A stretch of 40,405 nucleotides of DNA from positions 1-40,405 of the forward strand of contig JAEIOG010000042.1 of assembly GCA_016342495.1 (NCBI GenBank). The letters are read 5' to 3'. This stretch comes from Phycisphaerae bacterium. GTDB taxonomy: Bacteria > Planctomycetota > Phycisphaerae > Sedimentisphaerales > SM23-30. Both the position numbers and the translations under genes were made by a program. The notes beneath the pieces are model-generated. The model was not told where the DNA came from. It ran no database searches and saw nothing but the letters and a program-made list of their open reading frames with translations. Numbering within the stretch: position 1 is the stretch's first letter; each line of letters opens with the position of its first letter. Of the stretch, positions 27,672-36,793 are shown piece by piece.

Positions 27672-29681
27672 TTACGAAGCCTGCTGTTTTTTCCGTGGCA
27701 GGATAACGGTAAAAGTCGTTCCAGTTGGGCCTTTTCCCGGGTCATCGTTTGACTGGACCTGGATATTTCCATGATGCATTTTAACAATACCATAAGTTAC
27801 CGCCAGGCCCAGGCCGGTACCCTCTCCAATTTGCTTGGTAGTAAAAAATGGTTCGAACAATTTTGAGATATTTTCTTTTGCAATACCTGTGCCGGTATCC
27901 GAAACCATAACTTTAATATTATGCTGGTCGCCAGAGCTGTTAATTGTCAAAGTTCCTCCATCAGTCATGGCGTGCTGGGCATTATTAACCAGATTGGTAA
28001 AAACCTGAATAATCTGATCAGAATCAATTTCAGCTGATTTATTATCCATATTATGTTCAACGACAACATTAACATTTGACTGGTTGCAATGCAATTCAAC
28101 GACACTATCAAGCAAATCAGTAATATCGGCATTGCTGAAAACAACTTTGTTCTGTCTGGCAAAATGAAGTAAACCGCCAACAATTTTTTTGCATCGGTCC
28201 GCTTGTTCGGCAATCATTTTTACATCTTCAAGAGTCTCAACTGGCATATTCTGCTGATCCAGCAATAAATGCGAATACATCAAAACCACGCCCAACGGGT
28301 TATTAACTTCATGGGCGATGCCAGCAGCTAACTGCCCCATCGAAGCAAGCTTTTCTGAATGCATCAAAGCTTCCTGGGTGTCAGCTAACTGTTCATTTGA
28401 TAAATGAAGCTTCTTAACAGTGAGCTTCAAGGTTTCAATAATATTTGGCAGACACATTTCAGTTTCGGCCAAACCCTTAAATATTGCAACAGCATGCTCC
28501 TGGCAGGTGTCATAGCCACAAGCACCACAGTTAAGCTCATCCGCGGTAGATTTTTTACCCATCCTTGCTAAAATCTGGGCCAGTTCTTCCTTAAAAGGAA
28601 CCGCGAGTCTCTGGTCATTAGCCGTAAACTTACGATATAAATCAACATCTTTGAGCTCTTCGAACATCTGCAAATCCGCATCAGTCAGGGGGACCTCTCT
28701 CTGCTTTTTAACATATTTACTTATATCGCTGCGACGGGTAAACAAGGAGTTTCTGGTGCTCATCCCTGCCCCCATAATACAGCCATTACATGCTAAAATC
28801 TCAAGAAAACGGGCATCCATTGATCCCATTTCAAATTCACGTATTGCTTCAATAAAACGAGTACGCCCATCAGTATTAACTACATCGCCAAGAATAAGGT
28901 CTTCATGCAAATTCGCAGCCTGCAGCAAGCCCCTGCTCAGCGGAAACAGCCCGCCTAACGATGGTTTTGGAGGGTCAAATTCACAATGTGATACGTCTTC
29001 AGGTTTCAGATCATGAGCAATAAACATCTCACGCAATTCCGCAAATGTAATTGACACCGATACTTCTTGCTCAAGATTAGCACTGGATGCTTCACATTTT
29101 TTAGCAATACAAGGGCCAATAAATACAATTTTCAAATCATCATCATATAATCTGTGCAACACACGAGCCATTGCAATCATCGGAGAAACTATCGGAGCTA
29201 GATATTCTAATGCCTCAGGATGATATTTCTCAACAAAACTAATAATAGCCGGACAAGGTGTAGAAATAAATCTTTTTGAAGTATCAGCTTCAAGAAGTTT
29301 ACGATATTCAGCAGCAACAAGATCCGCTCCAAAGGCAACTTCGGTAACTAAGTCAAATCCCAAAGCACGAATCATCCCTACGATTTTGCCATAATCTAGC
29401 TCACTAAACTCTGCTGGAAACGATGGAGCAATGCAAGCAGCAACCCGGGAGCCAGATTTCAGTAAATCTTCAACCTGGCCAATTGTGCTGACAGCATACT
29501 TGGCATGTTGACTGCAAACTCGCACACAATTGCCACAACTGATACATCTTTCAGGGATAATCTCAGCCTGTCCGTCAACTATACGAATAGCCTTGGCCGG
29601 ACAATCACGCACGCATGAATAACACATACGACAATCGTCAATGCGAGTTTCTATAAAAGATTTATGTGGTGGCAAAATCAT
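27672..29681 (-). CDS. Hydrogenase-like iron-sulfur sensor histidine kinase (HydS type)
   Basis: A 669-aa soluble sensor kinase. In order: two [4Fe-4S] ferredoxin motifs (C17-x2-C20-x2-C23-x3-C27, and CISCGNCVRVC); an [FeFe]-hydrogenase large-subunit domain (about 80-340) with altered cluster motifs TPCPAII (Cys143), GPCIAKKCE (Cys191) and ACNGCIMGAG (Cys298, Cys301); an Fe-S/Fes motif NCGACGYDTCQEHA; and a kinase core with H457 in GIAHEVNNPLG, NLVNNAQHA and GTGLGLAV. The Cys that relays protons in active hydrogenases is Pro142. The domain thus probably senses H2 or redox state instead of turning over. GGAG is 7 nt before its ATG. It follows hydA by 66 nt, so it probably controls or monitors the hydrogenase. 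Confidence 0.88.
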   Translation of the reverse strand: MILPPHKSFIETRIDDCRMCYSCVRDCPAKAIRIVDGQAEIIPERCISCGNCVRVCSQHAKYAVSTIGQVEDLLKSGSRVAACIAPSFPAEFSELDYGKIVGMIRALGFDLVTEVAFGADLVAAEYRKLLEADTSKRFISTPCPAIISFVEKYHPEALEYLAPIVSPMIAMARVLHRLYDDDLKIVFIGPCIAKKCEASSANLEQEVSVSITFAELREMFIAHDLKPEDVSHCEFDPPKPSLGGLFPLSRGLLQAANLHEDLILGDVVNTDGRTRFIEAIREFEMGSMDARFLEILACNGCIMGAGMSTRNSLFTRRSDISKYVKKQREVPLTDADLQMFEELKDVDLYRKFTANDQRLAVPFKEELAQILARMGKKSTADELNCGACGYDTCQEHAVAIFKGLAETEMCLPNIIETLKLTVKKLHLSNEQLADTQEALMHSEKLASMGQLAAGIAHEVNNPLGVVLMYSHLLLDQQNMPVETLEDVKMIAEQADRCKKIVGGLLHFARQNKVVFSNADITDLLDSVVELHCNQSNVNVVVEHNMDNKSAEIDSDQIIQVFTNLVNNAQHAMTDGGTLTINSSGDQHNIKVMVSDTGTGIAKENISKLFEPFFTTKQIGEGTGLGLAVTYGIVKMHHGNIQVQSNDDPGKGPTGTTFTVILPRKKQQAS

Positions 29682-29747: not shown

Positions 29748-31472
29748 CTATTTAATGCTATCACGTTTTTCATATTCAGTATGAAGTAAGTGATGGCTCT
29801 TTTCGCCCAGAGGTTTCTTGAGATATTCTTCGTAAATACGAGTAATCTCCGGGTTAAGATGAGAGCACTGCAAAGATTCATCTCGATCAATTTTATACAG
29901 GGCCATCATGCGTTCTTTAACAGCTTCGATATCAGTACCAAGAGGCTGACCGCCACCATTGATACAACCACCCGGACAGGACATCACTTCGATAAAGTGT
30001 AAATCTTTTTCACCTTTTTTGATAGCTTGCAAGATTTTATGAGCATTGCCCAGACCAGAAACTGCTGCCACATTAAGAGTTAAATCACCAATTTTGACTG
30101 AAGTTTCTTTGATCCCGTCAAAACCACGAATTTCTTTAACCTTGATATCAGTCATTTCCTTACCTGTGACAAGGAAATGGGCGCTGCGAATAGCAGCTTC
30201 CATAACGCCACCGGAAGCACCAAAAAGCTTTCCAGCTGAACTGCGTTGTCCAAATGGGTTATCAGCTGCATCAGGTTCTAAGGCATTAATATCCAAATGA
30301 TACAGTTTGATAAGTCTTGCCAGTTCACGAGTAGTGAGAACTGCATCAACATCAGGAAAACCTTCAATATCTTCCATTTCAGGTCTTTGTGCTTCAAACT
30401 TTTTAGCGGTACAAGGCATCAAAGATACACTAAAGATATTTTTGGGGTCAAGCTCTTTCTTTTCAGCGAAAAAGCTCTTGATAACCGCACCCATCATTTG
30501 CTGAGGGCTCTTACAAGAAGAGACGTTTGGTAAAAATTCTGGATAGAACTGTTCGACAAACTTAACCCAGCCTGGGCTGCAGCTTGTCATCATTGGCAAT
30601 ACCCCGCCGTTTGTGAGGCGGTGAACCAATTCTGAGCCCTCTTCCATAATGGTAAGGTCGGCAGAAAAACTGGTATCGAACACAAAATCAAAACCTAATG
30701 CCCGCAAAGCAGCTGTCATAACACCACAGAAATCCTGTCCTGGTTTCATGCCGAATTCTTCTGCAACAGTAACTGAAACAGATGGCGCATGTTGAACCAC
30801 AACAGTTTTATTTGGATCATTAAGGGCGTCGATAACAGATTTAAGATGAGATTGTTCACGCAAAGCACCAGTGGGACAAACCATGATACATTGACCACAG
30901 TTGATACAGCTGGAGACATTAAGTCCTTCATTAAATGCAGTGCCAACTATAGCCTGGCTGCCCCGATTGATGAAATCCAGGGCACTTACGCCTTGAGTCT
31001 CTTCACAAACACGAACACAACGACCACAAAGGATACATTTGTCAGGATCACGAACAATAGACATACTGGAAGTATCTACATTTTTGAAAATACGTCCGCC
31101 AGAATAACGTCTTTCACGCACGCCATGTTCTTCGGCAAGAGTCTGCAATTCACAATTACCATTACGCACACAATACAAACAATCATCAGGATGGTCGGCA
31201 AGAAGAAGCTCAATAATTGTTTTACGAGCTCTGACTACCTTAGGTGAATGTGTCTGGATTTTCATACCAGGTTCAACCGGATAAGCACAGCTGGGAATCA
31301 GGCCCGGACGGCCTTCAACTTCAACTACACAAATACGGCAAGCGCCTGTTGGCGCAAAATCTTCCATATGGCAAAGAGTAGGAACTATGATACCAGCTCG
31401 TTTAAGAGCAGTCAAAATAGTTTCGCCTTCCTTAGCTTCAATGGTTCTTTTGTTTACTTCTATATTAATCAC
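29748..31472 (-). CDS. hydA: Bifurcating [FeFe] hydrogenase catalytic subunit
   Basis: The subunit makes or oxidises H2 at the H-cluster in the trimeric HydABC/Hnd-type enzyme that couples NADH and ferredoxin. It has 574 aa. The order is a [2Fe-2S] domain (CHMEDFAPTGACRIC), a His-Cys [4Fe-4S] motif (HPDDCLYCVRNGNC), two ferredoxin clusters (CILCGRCVRVC, CINCGQCIMVC) and the H domain. H motifs: L1 TSCSPGW (Cys298, Ser299), L2 MPCTAKKFE (Cys354) and L3 SCPGGCINGGG (Cys499, Cys503). L1 is usually TSCCP; here the second Cys, a cluster ligand in the CpI enzyme, is Ser, while an extra Cys320 follows in SSCKSPQ. The start is GTG with AGAGG 6 nt upstream, 14 nt after hydB. Confidence 0.95.
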   Translation of the reverse strand: MINIEVNKRTIEAKEGETILTALKRAGIIVPTLCHMEDFAPTGACRICVVEVEGRPGLIPSCAYPVEPGMKIQTHSPKVVRARKTIIELLLADHPDDCLYCVRNGNCELQTLAEEHGVRERRYSGGRIFKNVDTSSMSIVRDPDKCILCGRCVRVCEETQGVSALDFINRGSQAIVGTAFNEGLNVSSCINCGQCIMVCPTGALREQSHLKSVIDALNDPNKTVVVQHAPSVSVTVAEEFGMKPGQDFCGVMTAALRALGFDFVFDTSFSADLTIMEEGSELVHRLTNGGVLPMMTSCSPGWVKFVEQFYPEFLPNVSSCKSPQQMMGAVIKSFFAEKKELDPKNIFSVSLMPCTAKKFEAQRPEMEDIEGFPDVDAVLTTRELARLIKLYHLDINALEPDAADNPFGQRSSAGKLFGASGGVMEAAIRSAHFLVTGKEMTDIKVKEIRGFDGIKETSVKIGDLTLNVAAVSGLGNAHKILQAIKKGEKDLHFIEVMSCPGGCINGGGQPLGTDIEAVKERMMALYKIDRDESLQCSHLNPEITRIYEEYLKKPLGEKSHHLLHTEYEKRDSIK

Positions 31473-31486
31473 GTCAAGCCTCTTTC

Positions 31487-33469
31487 TTATTTAACCTCAA
31501 CCGCGTCAAAACGACAAACATCAACACAAGTACCGCAAGCAATACACTTGTCGGGAACGATATAGTGCGGGCTCTTGGCAGTACCCATAATTGCATCGAC
31601 AGGACATTTCCTGGCACAAAGAGTACAACCAACACATTTTTCGGCATTAATACTGTAATGTAATAATTCCGTACATGCTCCAGCAGGACAACAACGTTCA
31701 TAGACATGAGCATCATATTCATCCCGGAACCATCTTAAGGTACTGAGAACCGGATTCGGGGCTGTCTGGCCCAGACCACACAATGATGTATTTTTGATGA
31801 CTTCACCCAGTCGCGACAAATACATAACGCCTTTGAAACGCTCAAGCGTTTCCATTTGAGTTTCTTTGCCGGGGGCACGAGTAATGCGTTCGAGAATCTC
31901 AAGCATACGACGTGTGCCTTCACGGCATGGAATACATTTTCCGCATGATTCACGTTGAATAAAGTCCATGAAGAACTTGGCAACATCAACCATACAGGTC
32001 TTTTCATCCATAACCACCAGACCGCCAGAACCCATCATCGCTCCAACAGTTTTAAGTGATTCATAGTCAATTTCAATATCAAGATGGCTTTCAGGAATAC
32101 AACCACCAGATGGTCCACCAATCTGAACTGCTTTATAAGCTAAACCATCGGGAATACCGCCACCAATGTCAAAAACGATTTCGCGAAGGGTTGTACCCAT
32201 TGCAACTTCGATAAGACCAGTGCGATTTACTTTGCCAGACAAAGCAAAAACCTTTGTTCCCTTTGAACCTTCCGTACCAATCGAACTGAACCAGTCAGAA
32301 CCATTGGCTACAATTAAAGGAAGATTTGAAAGAGTTTCAACATTATTAATAATAGTTGGCTTGCCAAACAAACCAGAGACCGCCGGAAATGGTGGACGCG
32401 GACGTGGCATGCCACGTTTACCTTCAATACTATTTATCAAAGCTGTTTCTTCGCCACAAACAAAAGCACCGGCACCCTTTTTGATAACAATTTCCAGATT
32501 GAAACCACTATCAAGAATATTACTCCCCAAAAGCCCACAAGCTTTTGCCTGAGCAATAGCCAGTTCAAAACGGGCGATTGCCAGGGGATATTCGGCACGA
32601 AGATAACAATACGCCTTAGAAGCACCGATAGCATAAGCTGCTATAGCCATACCTTCCAGCAAACGATGCGGATCACCTTCGATAACCGCACGATCCATAA
32701 AAGCACCAGGGTCACCCTCATCTGCATTACATATGAGATATTTTTGATCGGAGTTTTGAGCTAAAGCAAATTTCCATTTGCGCCCAGCCGGGAACCCCCC
32801 GCCACCACGACCACGAAGGCCGGAAGCTTCAACCATATCACAAAGTTCCTGGGAAGTATTCTGGGAAATAGCATGTGCAAAAGCACGATAACCGCCACCA
32901 GCTAAATATTCTTCAATCCTGGTAGGATCAACAATACCACAATTTATCAGAACCAGACGTTTTTGAGCTTTGAAGAATGGATGCTCATCAATAAAAGGTG
33001 CTGACCAGGATTCAAGAGCTTCATTTCGGTGTTGCCCCATAACATTATCTGCTGGGACATTACCAGCAAAGACTAAATCTATAATATCAGCAACTTTGTC
33101 TGCAGTTACAGCTTCAAAAGCGATTCTGGTTTTACCGGGAAGCTGAATTTCCATAATTGGTTCAGCGGCACAAAGGCCAATACAGCCAACTTCCACTACA
33201 TCAGCATCAATTGCTTTATCAGCAAGATAACCTTTGAGTACTTTTAGCGATTTACCAGCACCGGCGGCCAGGCCACAAGTTCCGGTACCAACAAAGATTA
33301 CCGGTTTAGTAATAACATTGCGTTTCAGATAGGATATCTTTGTTTGTAATTCATCATCTAAAGCAGAACTATCATTGACCGGTCCTACGGTCAAACTGGA
33401 TACCAGGTCTGCATGCAGCACACCTGAATCACAGCAACAACCCTGCTTAGCATTATTATTCTGATTCAT
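31487..33469 (-). CDS. hydB: Bifurcating hydrogenase NADH/FMN subunit
   Basis: The 660-aa NuoF-like subunit holds the FMN, the NAD(H) site and the likely electron-bifurcation point. It has a thioredoxin-like [2Fe-2S] domain near residues 55-130 (TGTCGLAAG, then GCIGLCAAEP), and FMN/NAD-binding blocks GRGGGGFPAGRKW and GAGAFVCGEETALI. A [4Fe-4S] motif ESCGKCIPCREG follows, and the C-terminal tail has two ferredoxin motifs (CVGCTLCARKC, CIACGTCVDVC). It overlaps hydC by 14 nt, which supports coupled translation. The domain set matches HydB/HndC of trimeric [FeFe] hydrogenases more than complex I. Confidence 0.95.
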   Translation of the reverse strand: MNQNNNAKQGCCCDSGVLHADLVSSLTVGPVNDSSALDDELQTKISYLKRNVITKPVIFVGTGTCGLAAGAGKSLKVLKGYLADKAIDADVVEVGCIGLCAAEPIMEIQLPGKTRIAFEAVTADKVADIIDLVFAGNVPADNVMGQHRNEALESWSAPFIDEHPFFKAQKRLVLINCGIVDPTRIEEYLAGGGYRAFAHAISQNTSQELCDMVEASGLRGRGGGGFPAGRKWKFALAQNSDQKYLICNADEGDPGAFMDRAVIEGDPHRLLEGMAIAAYAIGASKAYCYLRAEYPLAIARFELAIAQAKACGLLGSNILDSGFNLEIVIKKGAGAFVCGEETALINSIEGKRGMPRPRPPFPAVSGLFGKPTIINNVETLSNLPLIVANGSDWFSSIGTEGSKGTKVFALSGKVNRTGLIEVAMGTTLREIVFDIGGGIPDGLAYKAVQIGGPSGGCIPESHLDIEIDYESLKTVGAMMGSGGLVVMDEKTCMVDVAKFFMDFIQRESCGKCIPCREGTRRMLEILERITRAPGKETQMETLERFKGVMYLSRLGEVIKNTSLCGLGQTAPNPVLSTLRWFRDEYDAHVYERCCPAGACTELLHYSINAEKCVGCTLCARKCPVDAIMGTAKSPHYIVPDKCIACGTCVDVCRFDAVEVK

Positions 33470-33938
33470 TTTGCGCTGCCTTTCTACGATAAATATCGAT
33501 AATGTCTTTTATTTTATCTCCAGTAGCGCCGGCGTAAAATTCGCCATTAATACTGATAACAGGTGCCAACCCACAAGCTCCGATACAGGCAACAACTTCC
33601 AGACTGAACAGACCATCGCGAGAAGTACTCCCGGCTTTAATGCCTAGTTCACGCTCTACAGCATCAAGAGTAGCCAATGAGCCGCGAACATGACAAGCCG
33701 TACCGCGGCATACCTGTATATGATATTTGCCTTGAGGTTCAAAACTGAACTGATTGTAAAAAGTTGCCACCCCGTAAATTTTACTAGCTGGTAAACTAAG
33801 ATGTTCACCAACGGCAATAACCGCTTCACGTGACAGGTAGCCCTGGGCTTCCTGAATGTCCTGCAAAAGAGGAATCAAACTGTCACGGCTAGCGTTAGGA
33901 TAGTTTTCAAAAATGCTTGAAAATTCATTCTGTGCCAT
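33456..33938 (-). CDS. hydC: Bifurcating hydrogenase [2Fe-2S] subunit (NuoE-like)
   Basis: A 160-aa thioredoxin-like [2Fe-2S] protein that passes electrons within HydABC. It shows the NuoE pattern: YLSREAVIAVGEHL helix, YGVATFYNQF, then cluster Cys in CRGTACHVRG and ACIGACGLAP (C-x4-C and C-x3-C). Its ATG shares one base with the rex stop codon (TAATG), and it overlaps hydB by 14 nt, so rex, hydC and hydB form one translationally coupled unit. Confidence 0.95.
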   Translation of the reverse strand: MAQNEFSSIFENYPNASRDSLIPLLQDIQEAQGYLSREAVIAVGEHLSLPASKIYGVATFYNQFSFEPQGKYHIQVCRGTACHVRGSLATLDAVERELGIKAGSTSRDGLFSLEVVACIGACGLAPVISINGEFYAGATGDKIKDIIDIYRRKAAQNESE

Positions 33939-34579
33939 TACGCTTCCTTTTTCTGTTTATTTTGACGTGCAAAATAGGCTACTTTTTCCAGTGAAATAGC
34001 CAGGTCAATATCTTCTATAAAAACGTCTGATGGAACTCTAAGATGAATAGGAGCAAAATTCATGATGCCTTTAACGCCAGAACGAACCAGAATATCAGCG
34101 ACATTCTGTGCCTGAGTAACCGGTACGGTAATAACGGCAACCTTAATTGAATTTTGCACAATGTATTCTTCGAGTGAATCAGCCGAAAAACAACGAATAT
34201 TATGAATAACCCGATTAACTTTCTTCTCATCAGAATCAAAAGCTGCTACGAGTTGTAATTTGGGCCTCCTGCCCCCGAAATAGGACATAATCGCCCTGCC
34301 TAGATTCCCGACACCTATAATAACAGCAGGTTGCCCTTCTGGGTCTTCCAGAAAATGAGCGATGCTTTCTGCAAGTTTAACAACATCATAGCCTTTAGAA
34401 GGACTACCGGTATATCCAATAGCCATTATGTCACGACGCAACTTTGCCGCGGTGACACCAGCTTTGGTCGCCAACTGATGAGAATACACATATGAGACCG
34501 ATGCAGTACTTAGCTCTTGCAGTAATCTCCGGTACAGACTCAATCGTCCAACTGTTTTTTCTGAAGTATTAAGAGGCAT
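33938..34579 (-). CDS. rex: Redox-sensing transcriptional repressor Rex
   Basis: Rex binds DNA when NAD+ is high and lets go when NADH rises, controlling fermentative and hydrogenase genes. The N-terminal winged helix (RLSLYRRLLQEL, QLATKAGVTAAKLRRDI) is followed by a Rossmann fold with GVGNLGRAI, and a C-terminal helix EKVAYFARQ swaps between dimer partners. I start it at ATG 34579, with GAGGA 7 nt upstream, giving 213 aa, the usual Rex length; the ATG at 34615 lacks a ribosome site and would add 12 non-conserved residues. First gene of the hydrogenase operon, preceded by its own Rex-type operator. Confidence 0.93.
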   Translation of the reverse strand: MPLNTSEKTVGRLSLYRRLLQELSTASVSYVYSHQLATKAGVTAAKLRRDIMAIGYTGSPSKGYDVVKLAESIAHFLEDPEGQPAVIIGVGNLGRAIMSYFGGRRPKLQLVAAFDSDEKKVNRVIHNIRCFSADSLEEYIVQNSIKVAVITVPVTQAQNVADILVRSGVKGIMNFAPIHLRVPSDVFIEDIDLAISLEKVAYFARQNKQKKEA

Positions 34580-34621
34580 TTTGAAATCCTCTGGGGACCT
34601 TGGTTTGTGACTCATTAAACA

Positions 34622-34639
34622 TTGTTAAAATATTCACAG
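34622..34639. promoter_or_regulatory. Rex operator at the rex-hydCBA transcription start
   Basis: Read on the minus strand, CTGTGAA-TATT-TTAACAA matches the Rex consensus TTGTGAA-N4-TTCACAA at 12 of 14 half-site positions. It begins 1 nt downstream of the -10 box and covers the predicted start of transcription (about 34634), an ideal place for repression. Confidence 0.8.
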
Positions 34640-34640
34640 C

Positions 34641-34669
34641 AGTATATATTCACGAATCGGATTTGTCAA
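34641..34669 (-). promoter_or_regulatory. Promoter of the rex-hyd operon
   Basis: On the minus strand, a perfect -35 TTGACA (34669-34664), a 17-bp spacer and a -10 TATACT (34646-34641). The Rex operator follows directly. The spacer holds TTCGTGAA, which resembles a further Rex half-site. Confidence 0.8.
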
Positions 34670-35006
34670 GCATTAAAAACAACAATTATTTCCCCAGATA
34701 TCGTTTTAATACGTAATTACTTGCAAAATAAAGACTAAACACTTTATGGCGACCTATAAATCTCCGATAATCTTCGTTTATCTTTGTGAAAAATAAACAT
34801 ATCGCGATACAACCCCCCTTACTGTTATTTTAAATTAATAAAACATATCGCGTTATAAATCAACTATCGTCTTTTTTTTACCAAAATTTAACGTAAATCA
34901 TATGATATATTAAGATTATAAGCTAAATATATGGAAATATCTCCATCCATAATCATTTTGGAATACAGATTAAAGTTAATGTTACCCCCCGGCACCGTCA
35001 AATCGT
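34670..35006. other. Spacer between dapA and the rex promoter
   Basis: AT-rich with no gene. It holds two direct repeats of AACATATCGCG (34796-34806 and 34842-34852, 46 nt apart). The first overlaps the perfect palindrome TATCGCGATA (34800-34809). These may be binding sites for a second regulator of the hyd operon. Confidence 0.45.
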
Positions 35007-35030
35007 AGAGACAGGGCTCGCCCTGTCTCT
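35007..35030. repeat. REP-like palindrome
   Basis: A perfect 10-bp inverted repeat AGAGACAGGG/CCCTGTCTCT with loop CTCG. Neither strand has a T tract after it, so it is not a normal terminator. It looks like a dispersed repetitive extragenic palindrome, and lies between the dapA stop and the rex upstream region. Confidence 0.6.
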
Positions 35031-35076
35031 GTCATCAAAATAACCAAAACATCAAACTGTCAAAAGGACAGGCCTC

Positions 35077-35946
35077 TTACAACAAACCAAAATCTTTCAA
35101 TATCTGGCGTAATTGCTGTTTCTGAGCCGAATCCAGCGGTACCATTGGCAGACGCAATTCGTCCGAGCACATGTTCAGCTCAGCCATCGCCGCTTTAATT
35201 GGTATTGGATTAGTTGACATCGACAGCAATGCCTTCGCAAGAGCATAGAGTTTATTATGCCATTTGCGGGCTGACTGAAAATCGCCATCAAGGATCGAAT
35301 CAGTCAAAGCCTTGACATCGGCAGGCACAATATTAGCAACAACCGAAATAACGCCTTTTCCACCTACCGATGCTATAGGCAATGTCAAACTGTCATCACC
35401 AGAAAGAATTGTCAAATTACAGCCGATGGCAATTGCCGAGGCTTGATCTAACATCCCGGTCGCTTCTTTGACGGCAACAATATTTTCTAAAGCAGCCAAG
35501 CGGATAATGGTTTCCGGGGTCATATTTACCGCCGAACGACCCGGAATATTATATAGCACTACAGGCAAATCCACAGTTTCAGCGATAGCGGAAAAATGCT
35601 GATAAAGCCCTTCCTGAGTCGGTTTATTATAATAAGGCACAACCTGCAGCGATGCATCAGCACCAACTTCTTTGGCAAAACGGGTCAATTCAATAGCTTC
35701 AGAAGTGCTATTTGACCCGGTTCCGGCAATAACCGGGATGCGCCCGGCAACCTGATCTACTACGGTTTTTATAACCTGTTTATGTTCTTCTGGATTAAGG
35801 GTAGGTGATTCGCCAGTAGTTCCGCAAGGCACAATGCCATCGGTACCTGCTTTAACATGCAAATCAACCAGTTCGCGTAAAGTTTCAAAATCAACCTGGC
35901 CATCACTAAATGGTGTGACCAACGCTACAATACTGCCTGAGAACAT
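35077..35946 (-). CDS. dapA: 4-hydroxy-tetrahydrodipicolinate synthase
   Basis: The protein condenses pyruvate with aspartate semialdehyde in the lysine/diaminopimelate pathway, supplying peptidoglycan cross-links. It has 289 aa, the family length. The TIM-barrel motifs are GTTGESPTL, the catalytic Tyr in [10 protein letters not shown], and the Schiff-base Lys in [14 protein letters not shown] lies before the ATG. It follows pdxJ on the same strand after 115 nt and could be read from the pdxJ promoter. Confidence 0.97.
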
Positions 35947-35998
35947 TATATTACTCCTGTAATAATTTAGAATTCATATCAGCACTCTCAATATAATC

Positions 35999-36012
35999 GT
36001 CGCCTCAGCGAC
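35999..36012. repeat. Small hairpin between pdxJ and dapA
   Basis: GTCGC-CTCA-GCGAC, a perfect 5-bp GC-rich stem without a T tract. It may be an mRNA stability or processing element if the two genes are co-transcribed. Confidence 0.35.
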
Positions 36013-36061
36013 ATCTTCACTAGCGTCTTGTGCCTTTGACCTAGTGTATTCTTTGGATACT

Positions 36062-36793
36062 TTAACCGATTTGCCAGTGTTTGTCAATCAGGTCCAGCAT
36101 TTCACGGGTAGCTACCTGAATCCCGGTAAAAATCGACCTGGCTATAATGCTATGGCCAATATTAAAGTCTTCGATACCGTCAATTCCGGCTATCGGGCCA
36201 ATATTGCGATAATTCAGGCCATGACCGGCATGGACAGTCATACCCATTTCCCAGCCCATCTCGACAGCTTCGGTAATTTCATTGATACACCGCTCTATTT
36301 TTTCAGGACTGGTAGCATTGGCATATTCACCAGTATGCAACTCGACAGCGTCGACACCAGCGGTACAGGAAGCTTCCAGCTGCTTTTGGTCCGGGGCAAT
36401 AAAAGCCGAAACCAATATACCAGCTTTATGGAATCGCTTGGTAGCCAGTTTGAGTTTACTGGCGATCTTAACGCAATCCAGCCCGCCCTCGGTGGTAAGT
36501 TCTTCGCGTTTTTCCGGCACTAAAGTCACCTGCTCAGGTTTAAGCTTCAACGCCAGCTTAATAATAGGTTCAGTTAGAGCCATCTCCAGATTCAGCATGA
36601 CCCCGCCCAATTGCCGAACCAACTGAACATCGCGATCTTGAATATGGCGGCGATCTTCCCGCAGGTGCATGGTAATTCCAGATGCCCCGCCCAGCATACA
36701 CGCAGAAGCGGCCCAAACCGGATCTGGCTCATCAACTAAACGGGCTTGACGGATAGTGGCAACATGGTCGATATTAACATTTAATTTTGGCAT
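36062..36793 (-). CDS. pdxJ: Pyridoxine 5'-phosphate synthase
   Basis: The protein forms pyridoxine phosphate from deoxyxylulose 5-phosphate and aminoacetone phosphate, the last step of the DXP-dependent vitamin B6 route. It has 243 aa, typical. The barrel starts with LNVNIDHVATIRQAR and contains ITMHLREDRRHIQDRD, the catalytic-site Glu in MALTEPIIKLA, ELHTGEYA and VHAGHGLNYRN. It is first in a likely pdxJ-dapA unit and has its own promoter. No partner PdxA is present in the window. Confidence 0.95.
   Translation of the reverse strand: MPKLNVNIDHVATIRQARLVDEPDPVWAASACMLGGASGITMHLREDRRHIQDRDVQLVRQLGGVMLNLEMALTEPIIKLALKLKPEQVTLVPEKREELTTEGGLDCVKIASKLKLATKRFHKAGILVSAFIAPDQKQLEASCTAGVDAVELHTGEYANATSPEKIERCINEITEAVEMGWEMGMTVHAGHGLNYRNIGPIAGIDGIEDFNIGHSIIARSIFTGIQVATREMLDLIDKHWQIG

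Follow-up and report, generated by a model that had tools for sequence, protein, structure and literature searches.

Rex is a textbook NADH sensor, commonly pictured as a single dimer bound to a single palindrome. The window, by which we mean the whole stretch of 40,405 nucleotides of planctomycete DNA analyzed here, contains a rex gene (product Rex1) at the head of an [FeFe] hydrogenase operon. This raises the question of whether Rex1 controls its own operon and whether a single palindrome is enough to describe its operator. A first-pass annotation of this DNA had placed one Rex site on the start point of the promoter and had predicted autoregulation and NADH-dependent induction of the hydrogenase. 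Our analysis indicates that Rex1 very probably represses its own hydrogenase operon at a tandem operator and is very probably released by NADH.

Table 1. Features of the rex-hydrogenase region, with positions in the window.
Feature	Positions	Strand	Remarks
-35 box TTGACA	34664..34669	-	TTGAC-type -35 at the same place in most orthologous loci
-10 box TATACT	34641..34646	-	precedes Rex site 1 with one base between
Rex site 1, CTGTGAATATTTTAACAA	34622..34639	-	18-bp palindrome with a perfect GTKA-N6-TMAC core, over the predicted start near 34634
Rex site 2 (candidate), ATGTTTAATGAGTCACAA	34605..34622	-	weaker copy at 17-bp pitch; exact pitch kept in orthologues
Shine-Dalgarno AGAGG (putative)	34588..34592	-	8 nt before ATG 34579
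rex (Rex1)	33938..34579	-	probable start ATG 34579, Met13 of the ORF from 34615
NuoE-like 2Fe-2S subunit	33456..33938	-	directly behind rex
NuoF-like NADH/FMN subunit	31487..33469	-	
[FeFe] hydrogenase, group A6	29748..31472	-	NF040763, 840.5 bits (cut-off 765)
Histidine kinase, hydrogenase-like sensor domain	27672..29681	-	probably same operon, from the 67-bp gap

The ends of the rex, NuoE-like, NuoF-like and hydrogenase genes overlap or nearly touch. An A6 catalytic subunit with NuoE- and NuoF-like partners places the enzyme among the trimeric [FeFe] hydrogenases of group A6, and its predicted function is the NADH-/ferredoxin-linked H2 production expected of this class. Rex1 contains an N-terminal DNA-binding domain (PF06971) followed by a CoA-binding-type Rossmann domain (PF02629) and scores 206.8 bits against the family model NF003995 (cut-off 126). 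Its top solved structural relatives are all Rex proteins, and the fold agrees. The GxGxxG nucleotide-binding motif is intact, with G101, G103 and G106 invariant together with D127, the acidic residue after the second strand. From this intact Rossmann motif and the known biochemistry of Rex (PMC8836258), induction of the operon would be expected to depend on NADH.

The promoter, TTGACA-17-TATACT on the minus strand (34669-34641), scores 11 of 12 and is the top promoter match within 33500-36500. We found this promoter and the 18-bp Rex-type site behind it at exactly the coordinates given by the first-pass annotation, and recounting the match of CTGTGAATATTTTAACAA to the Rex operator TTGTGAANNNNTTCACAA gave the same value, 12 of 14 half-site bases (13 of 14 when TTGTKAANNNNTTMACAA is allowed). 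The proposed single site stands as site 1 but is not the complete operator, which is a tandem of two sites at 17-bp pitch. Site 2 begins 17 bp downstream of site 1 and has base 34622 in common with it, giving a tandem of 35 bp. In the window this second copy is degenerate, with three mismatches to the relaxed consensus TTGTKAANNNNTTMACAA, and may be weak there. The 31-bp tandem core GTKA-N6-TMAC-N3-GTTA-N6-TMAC has one mismatch in the window, and no other place in the genome comes closer than two. The longest rex reading frame, from 34615, would lay site 2 across the start codon. Because orthologues begin near residue 13, AGAGG lies 8 nt ahead of ATG 34579, and the structural model leaves residues 1-15 disordered, rex probably starts at this ATG, and both operator copies would thus be in the leader. 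An additional half-site without a partner, TCGTGAA (34649-34655, minus strand), straddles the spacer and -10 region of the promoter; it lies 16 bp ahead of the first half-site in site 1.

We examined the upstream regions of orthologous loci, and most of the first set had a pair of sites at 17-bp spacing. An enlarged set of 93 loci (the first 13 orthologues and 80 named relatives from the genome collection, with a few duplicates among them) contained the perfect tandem core in 23 loci and the core with one mismatch in 17. None appeared at that level in 50 whole-set shuffles, which preserved base composition only, the stronger test being the whole-genome control described below. In a non-redundant subset of 43 loci with nuoE behind rex, a perfect single core was found upstream in 42. 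When pitch was tabulated in these 43 loci with no spacing presumed, 17 bp was the only clearly enriched value. Pairs of sites at this pitch numbered 19 with no mismatches (0.0 expected) and 32 with at most one mismatch per site (0.03 expected), and a tandem with at most two mismatches was present in 35 of the 43 loci. According to their record titles, the tandem loci include Planctomycetota, Acidobacteriota, Hydrogenedentota, Riflebacteria, Lentisphaeria, Fermentibacteria, Eisenbacteria and Neomarinimicrobiota; this list is approximate, as titles of metagenome-assembled genomes (MAGs) can err. In actinobacterial MAGs (L118 2218-3807, L124 4042-5616) the tandem and rex precede a gene other than nuoE whose product combines a kinase-type ATPase domain with a hydrogenase-like Fe-S domain.

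The placement of the tandem relative to the promoter is also conserved. A sigma-70-like promoter scoring at least 9 of 12 was found in 28 of the 35 tandem loci, and in 25 of these 28 the -10 box ends 0-7 bp ahead of the first core. This conserved distance puts the predicted start point inside site 1, the classical position for a repressor, and fits the start near 34634 that had been predicted for the window. An 18-bp palindrome near TTGTGAANNNNTTCACAA lies at the promoter and is conserved with its regulator across relatives, as is characteristic of Rex operators. Phylogenetic footprinting, in which 42 of 43 rex-nuoE loci have the operator at the same place upstream, strongly supports the earlier proposal that Rex regulates itself and the hydrogenase operon.

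A lone site is modestly specific. Among the matches listed, sites with at most two mismatches to TTGTGAANNNNTTCACAA occurred at 34 distinct places in the 5.42-Mb genome (221 contigs), which amounts to about 6e-4 expected sites per 100 bp. When G/T and A/C were allowed with at most one mismatch, there were 9 places in this genome compared with 6 for the reversed pattern. These noisy single-site counts, obtained with the looser pattern, are what might be expected if site 1 were a palindrome that had arisen by chance in AT-rich intergenic DNA. We regard this as extremely improbable, as dozens of loci whose surroundings have diverged keep both the position and the spacing, and shuffling predicts none. 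Site 1 is convincing by position and conservation, not by score.

We searched 59 whole genomes from the family and order of the window for the exact 17-bp tandem and found it at 7 places, all directly upstream of rex-nuoE; the reversed pattern and a pitch-18 control had no match in these genomes. The tandem of the window itself is outside these 7 exact matches, owing to its one mismatch.

A second Rex, Rex2, is encoded on contig C167 of the same genome (L046 3654-4500). Like Rex1, it is the first gene before nuoE-nuoF-hydA and has a repeated palindromic operator upstream. Unlike Rex1, to which it is 32% identical, it has an operator of the form TCGAKA-N6-TMTCGA at 14-bp pitch. This motif was found with at most two mismatches upstream of Rex2 and all 18 of its orthologues, with 0.5 loci expected. 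In this clade (L046, L208-L226) it is often present in two or three copies at a strongly enriched 14-bp pitch, with neighbors sharing TCGA. A genome scan for the motif with at most one mismatch gave 39 matches compared with 41 for the reversed control, which leaves position and pitch as the only means of recognizing Rex2 sites. We placed 141 Rex proteins on a tree. Of the 41 loci carrying the 17-bp tandem, 39 group in a single 50-member clade (support 0.78), and a 20-member clade (support 0.986) takes in all 19 of the TCGA loci. This switch of operator motif with Rex clade argues that Rex itself is the binder. A paralogous Rex clade with a different motif at the equivalent place before the same kind of operon further backs Rex control of the hydrogenase genes.

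The core TGTGA-N6-TCACA is common to CRP and Rex operators. A regulator of the CRP/FNR family could in principle occupy the element in place of Rex, given that GTGA-N6-TCAC is a CRP core too. We consider this very unlikely. An operator for such a protein would be expected to carry GTGA-N6-TCAC in both halves and to have no tie to rex, and neither was observed: half-sites of the rex-nuoE loci mix TGTGAA and TGTTAA, with GTTA/TAAC frequent, the full tandem occurs only beside rex in the 59 genomes, and the motif becomes TCGA at the same place in the Rex2 clade.

Is the tandem occupied by one dimer or by two? Because the fixed 17-bp spacing recurs before the same operon in many phyla, it suggests that two copies of Rex act together at the double operator. 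In the alternative, one dimer binds at a time to mutually exclusive sites, with the second copy being a leftover or an alternative register. The geometry allows for this, as the sites overlap by one base and have a 3-bp junction in common; the second copy is also weaker in the window, and a few rex-nuoE loci retain just one good site. This alternative appears rather unlikely to us, since exact spacing kept in 31 of 43 loci (at most one mismatch per site) is hard to explain without joint function, and since the ldh1 promoter of Staphylococcus aureus has two separate Rex sites that give two shifted bands (PMC3544828). Our preferred reading is that two dimers act together. For this particular genome, simultaneous binding of both dimers is moderately probable because site 2 of the window is degenerate.

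We also compared the residues expected to contact DNA. In Rex from T. maritima, major-groove contacts are made by Arg48 and Lys49, and minor-groove contacts by Arg60-Gly61 in the wing (PMC8836258). The first of these recognition-helix positions is an invariant Arg in the Rex1 clade (R60), and the Lys position is Arg, His or, once, Gln. The wing of the clade has GSPxKGY in place of RGxGY, and the proteins still pass the family models; the wing Arg60-Gly61 is a structural detail and does not define the family. One idea is that, with such a wing, two dimers could more easily accommodate their common 3-bp junction. We rejected the missing wing Arg as a sufficient cause of the tandem, as there are Bacteroidales with the changed wing and no tandem. 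Most Bacteroidales relatives of Rex1 (L119 3628-4551 and others) lacked this operator within the 170 bp preceding rex. In one Bacteroidales locus that we checked, rex is followed by an FAD synthetase gene and not by hydrogenase genes.

These observations lead us to propose the following mechanism. Two Rex dimers would sit on two 18-bp palindromes 17 bp apart, covering the DNA from just past the -10 box over the start point and the early leader. When NAD+ is dominant, bound Rex would block RNA polymerase. A rise in NADH would cause Rex to close and leave the DNA, allowing expression of the operon, including rex. The NADH-linked [FeFe] hydrogenase could then dispose of reducing equivalents as H2. 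From a double operator whose pitch is fixed in front of hydrogenase operons of different phyla, one would predict that Rex binds cooperatively and responds to NADH at a sharper threshold.

We asked which other genes Rex1 might control. Scanning the genome for the motif, as the first-pass annotation had suggested for defining the regulon, revealed no broad regulon but did yield one further candidate. Single sites were too noisy for defining a regulon in this way; most other matches were inside genes or near unrelated genes, among them those for MarR, Rrf2, a fucosidase and PhoD. The best other candidate in the genome is an NADH-type hydrogenase operon on contig C43 (L088 6788-10675), comprising nuoE-nuoF-[FeFe] hydrogenase genes without a rex of its own, and preceded by a tandem with two mismatches and a single site with one. 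The orthologous operon in genome G007 has a full consensus site, TTGTGAAATATTTCACAA, but none occurs within 330 bp of its counterpart in genome G005. Across genomes with and without Rex1, the occurrence of sites ahead of other nuoE genes was too patchy to be informative. Rex1 therefore seems to regulate hydrogenase genes locally, with a small number of targets.

That Rex can control its own gene and hydrogenase genes is already known in outline (PMC6391272), and a promoter with two Rex sites is known too (PMC3544828). In Caldicellulosiruptor, hydrogenase-related genes are under Rex control and rex is a predicted target as well (PMC6391272); Rex is a global regulator there, whereas Rex1 is encoded within the hydrogenase operon itself and we found few other targets for it. 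The two Rex sites of the S. aureus ldh1 promoter lie at -160 and -218, a separation of about 58 bp with no overlap (PMC3544828). That promoter resembles ours in having two sites with the start point inside the proximal one, and differs in that its sites are separate and ours overlap by one base. Rex1 itself has the family, fold and nucleotide-binding motif of the known Rex repressors. Both halves of its tandem match their 18-bp operator TTGTGAANNNNTTCACAA, and the operator is over the start point as expected of a repressor. It differs from them in having two operator copies at a fixed 17-bp pitch with one base in common, in its GSPxKGY wing, and in half-sites of mixed sequence. In the literature searched we found neither a fixed 17-bp overlapping Rex tandem, although close tandem sites may have been mentioned earlier, nor a paralogous Rex clade with 14-bp TCGA arrays. 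The regulation is ordinary in kind, but the operator architecture appears to be new.

With two Rex clades and two different operators in one genome, it becomes possible to study in a natural setting how paralogous redox sensors are kept from cross-talk. We tentatively suggest that some anaerobes have two parallel, insulated NADH-sensing channels, in which each of two Rex paralogues heads its own NADH-linked [FeFe]-hydrogenase operon and reads its own multi-dimer operator. If so, these operators would be TGTKA sites at 17-bp pitch and TCGA sites at 14-bp pitch; packed neighboring dimers would give a switch-like response and the distinct half-sites would prevent cross-talk. The position-anchored operator pattern should also be useful for finding such hydrogenase regulation in uncultured bacteria.

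The histidine kinase encoded behind the hydrogenase (27672-29681, minus strand) has an N-terminal ferredoxin and [FeFe]-hydrogenase-like domain, and is followed by two single-domain response regulators and then a hybrid kinase. This cluster is a possible second layer of redox or H2 sensing.
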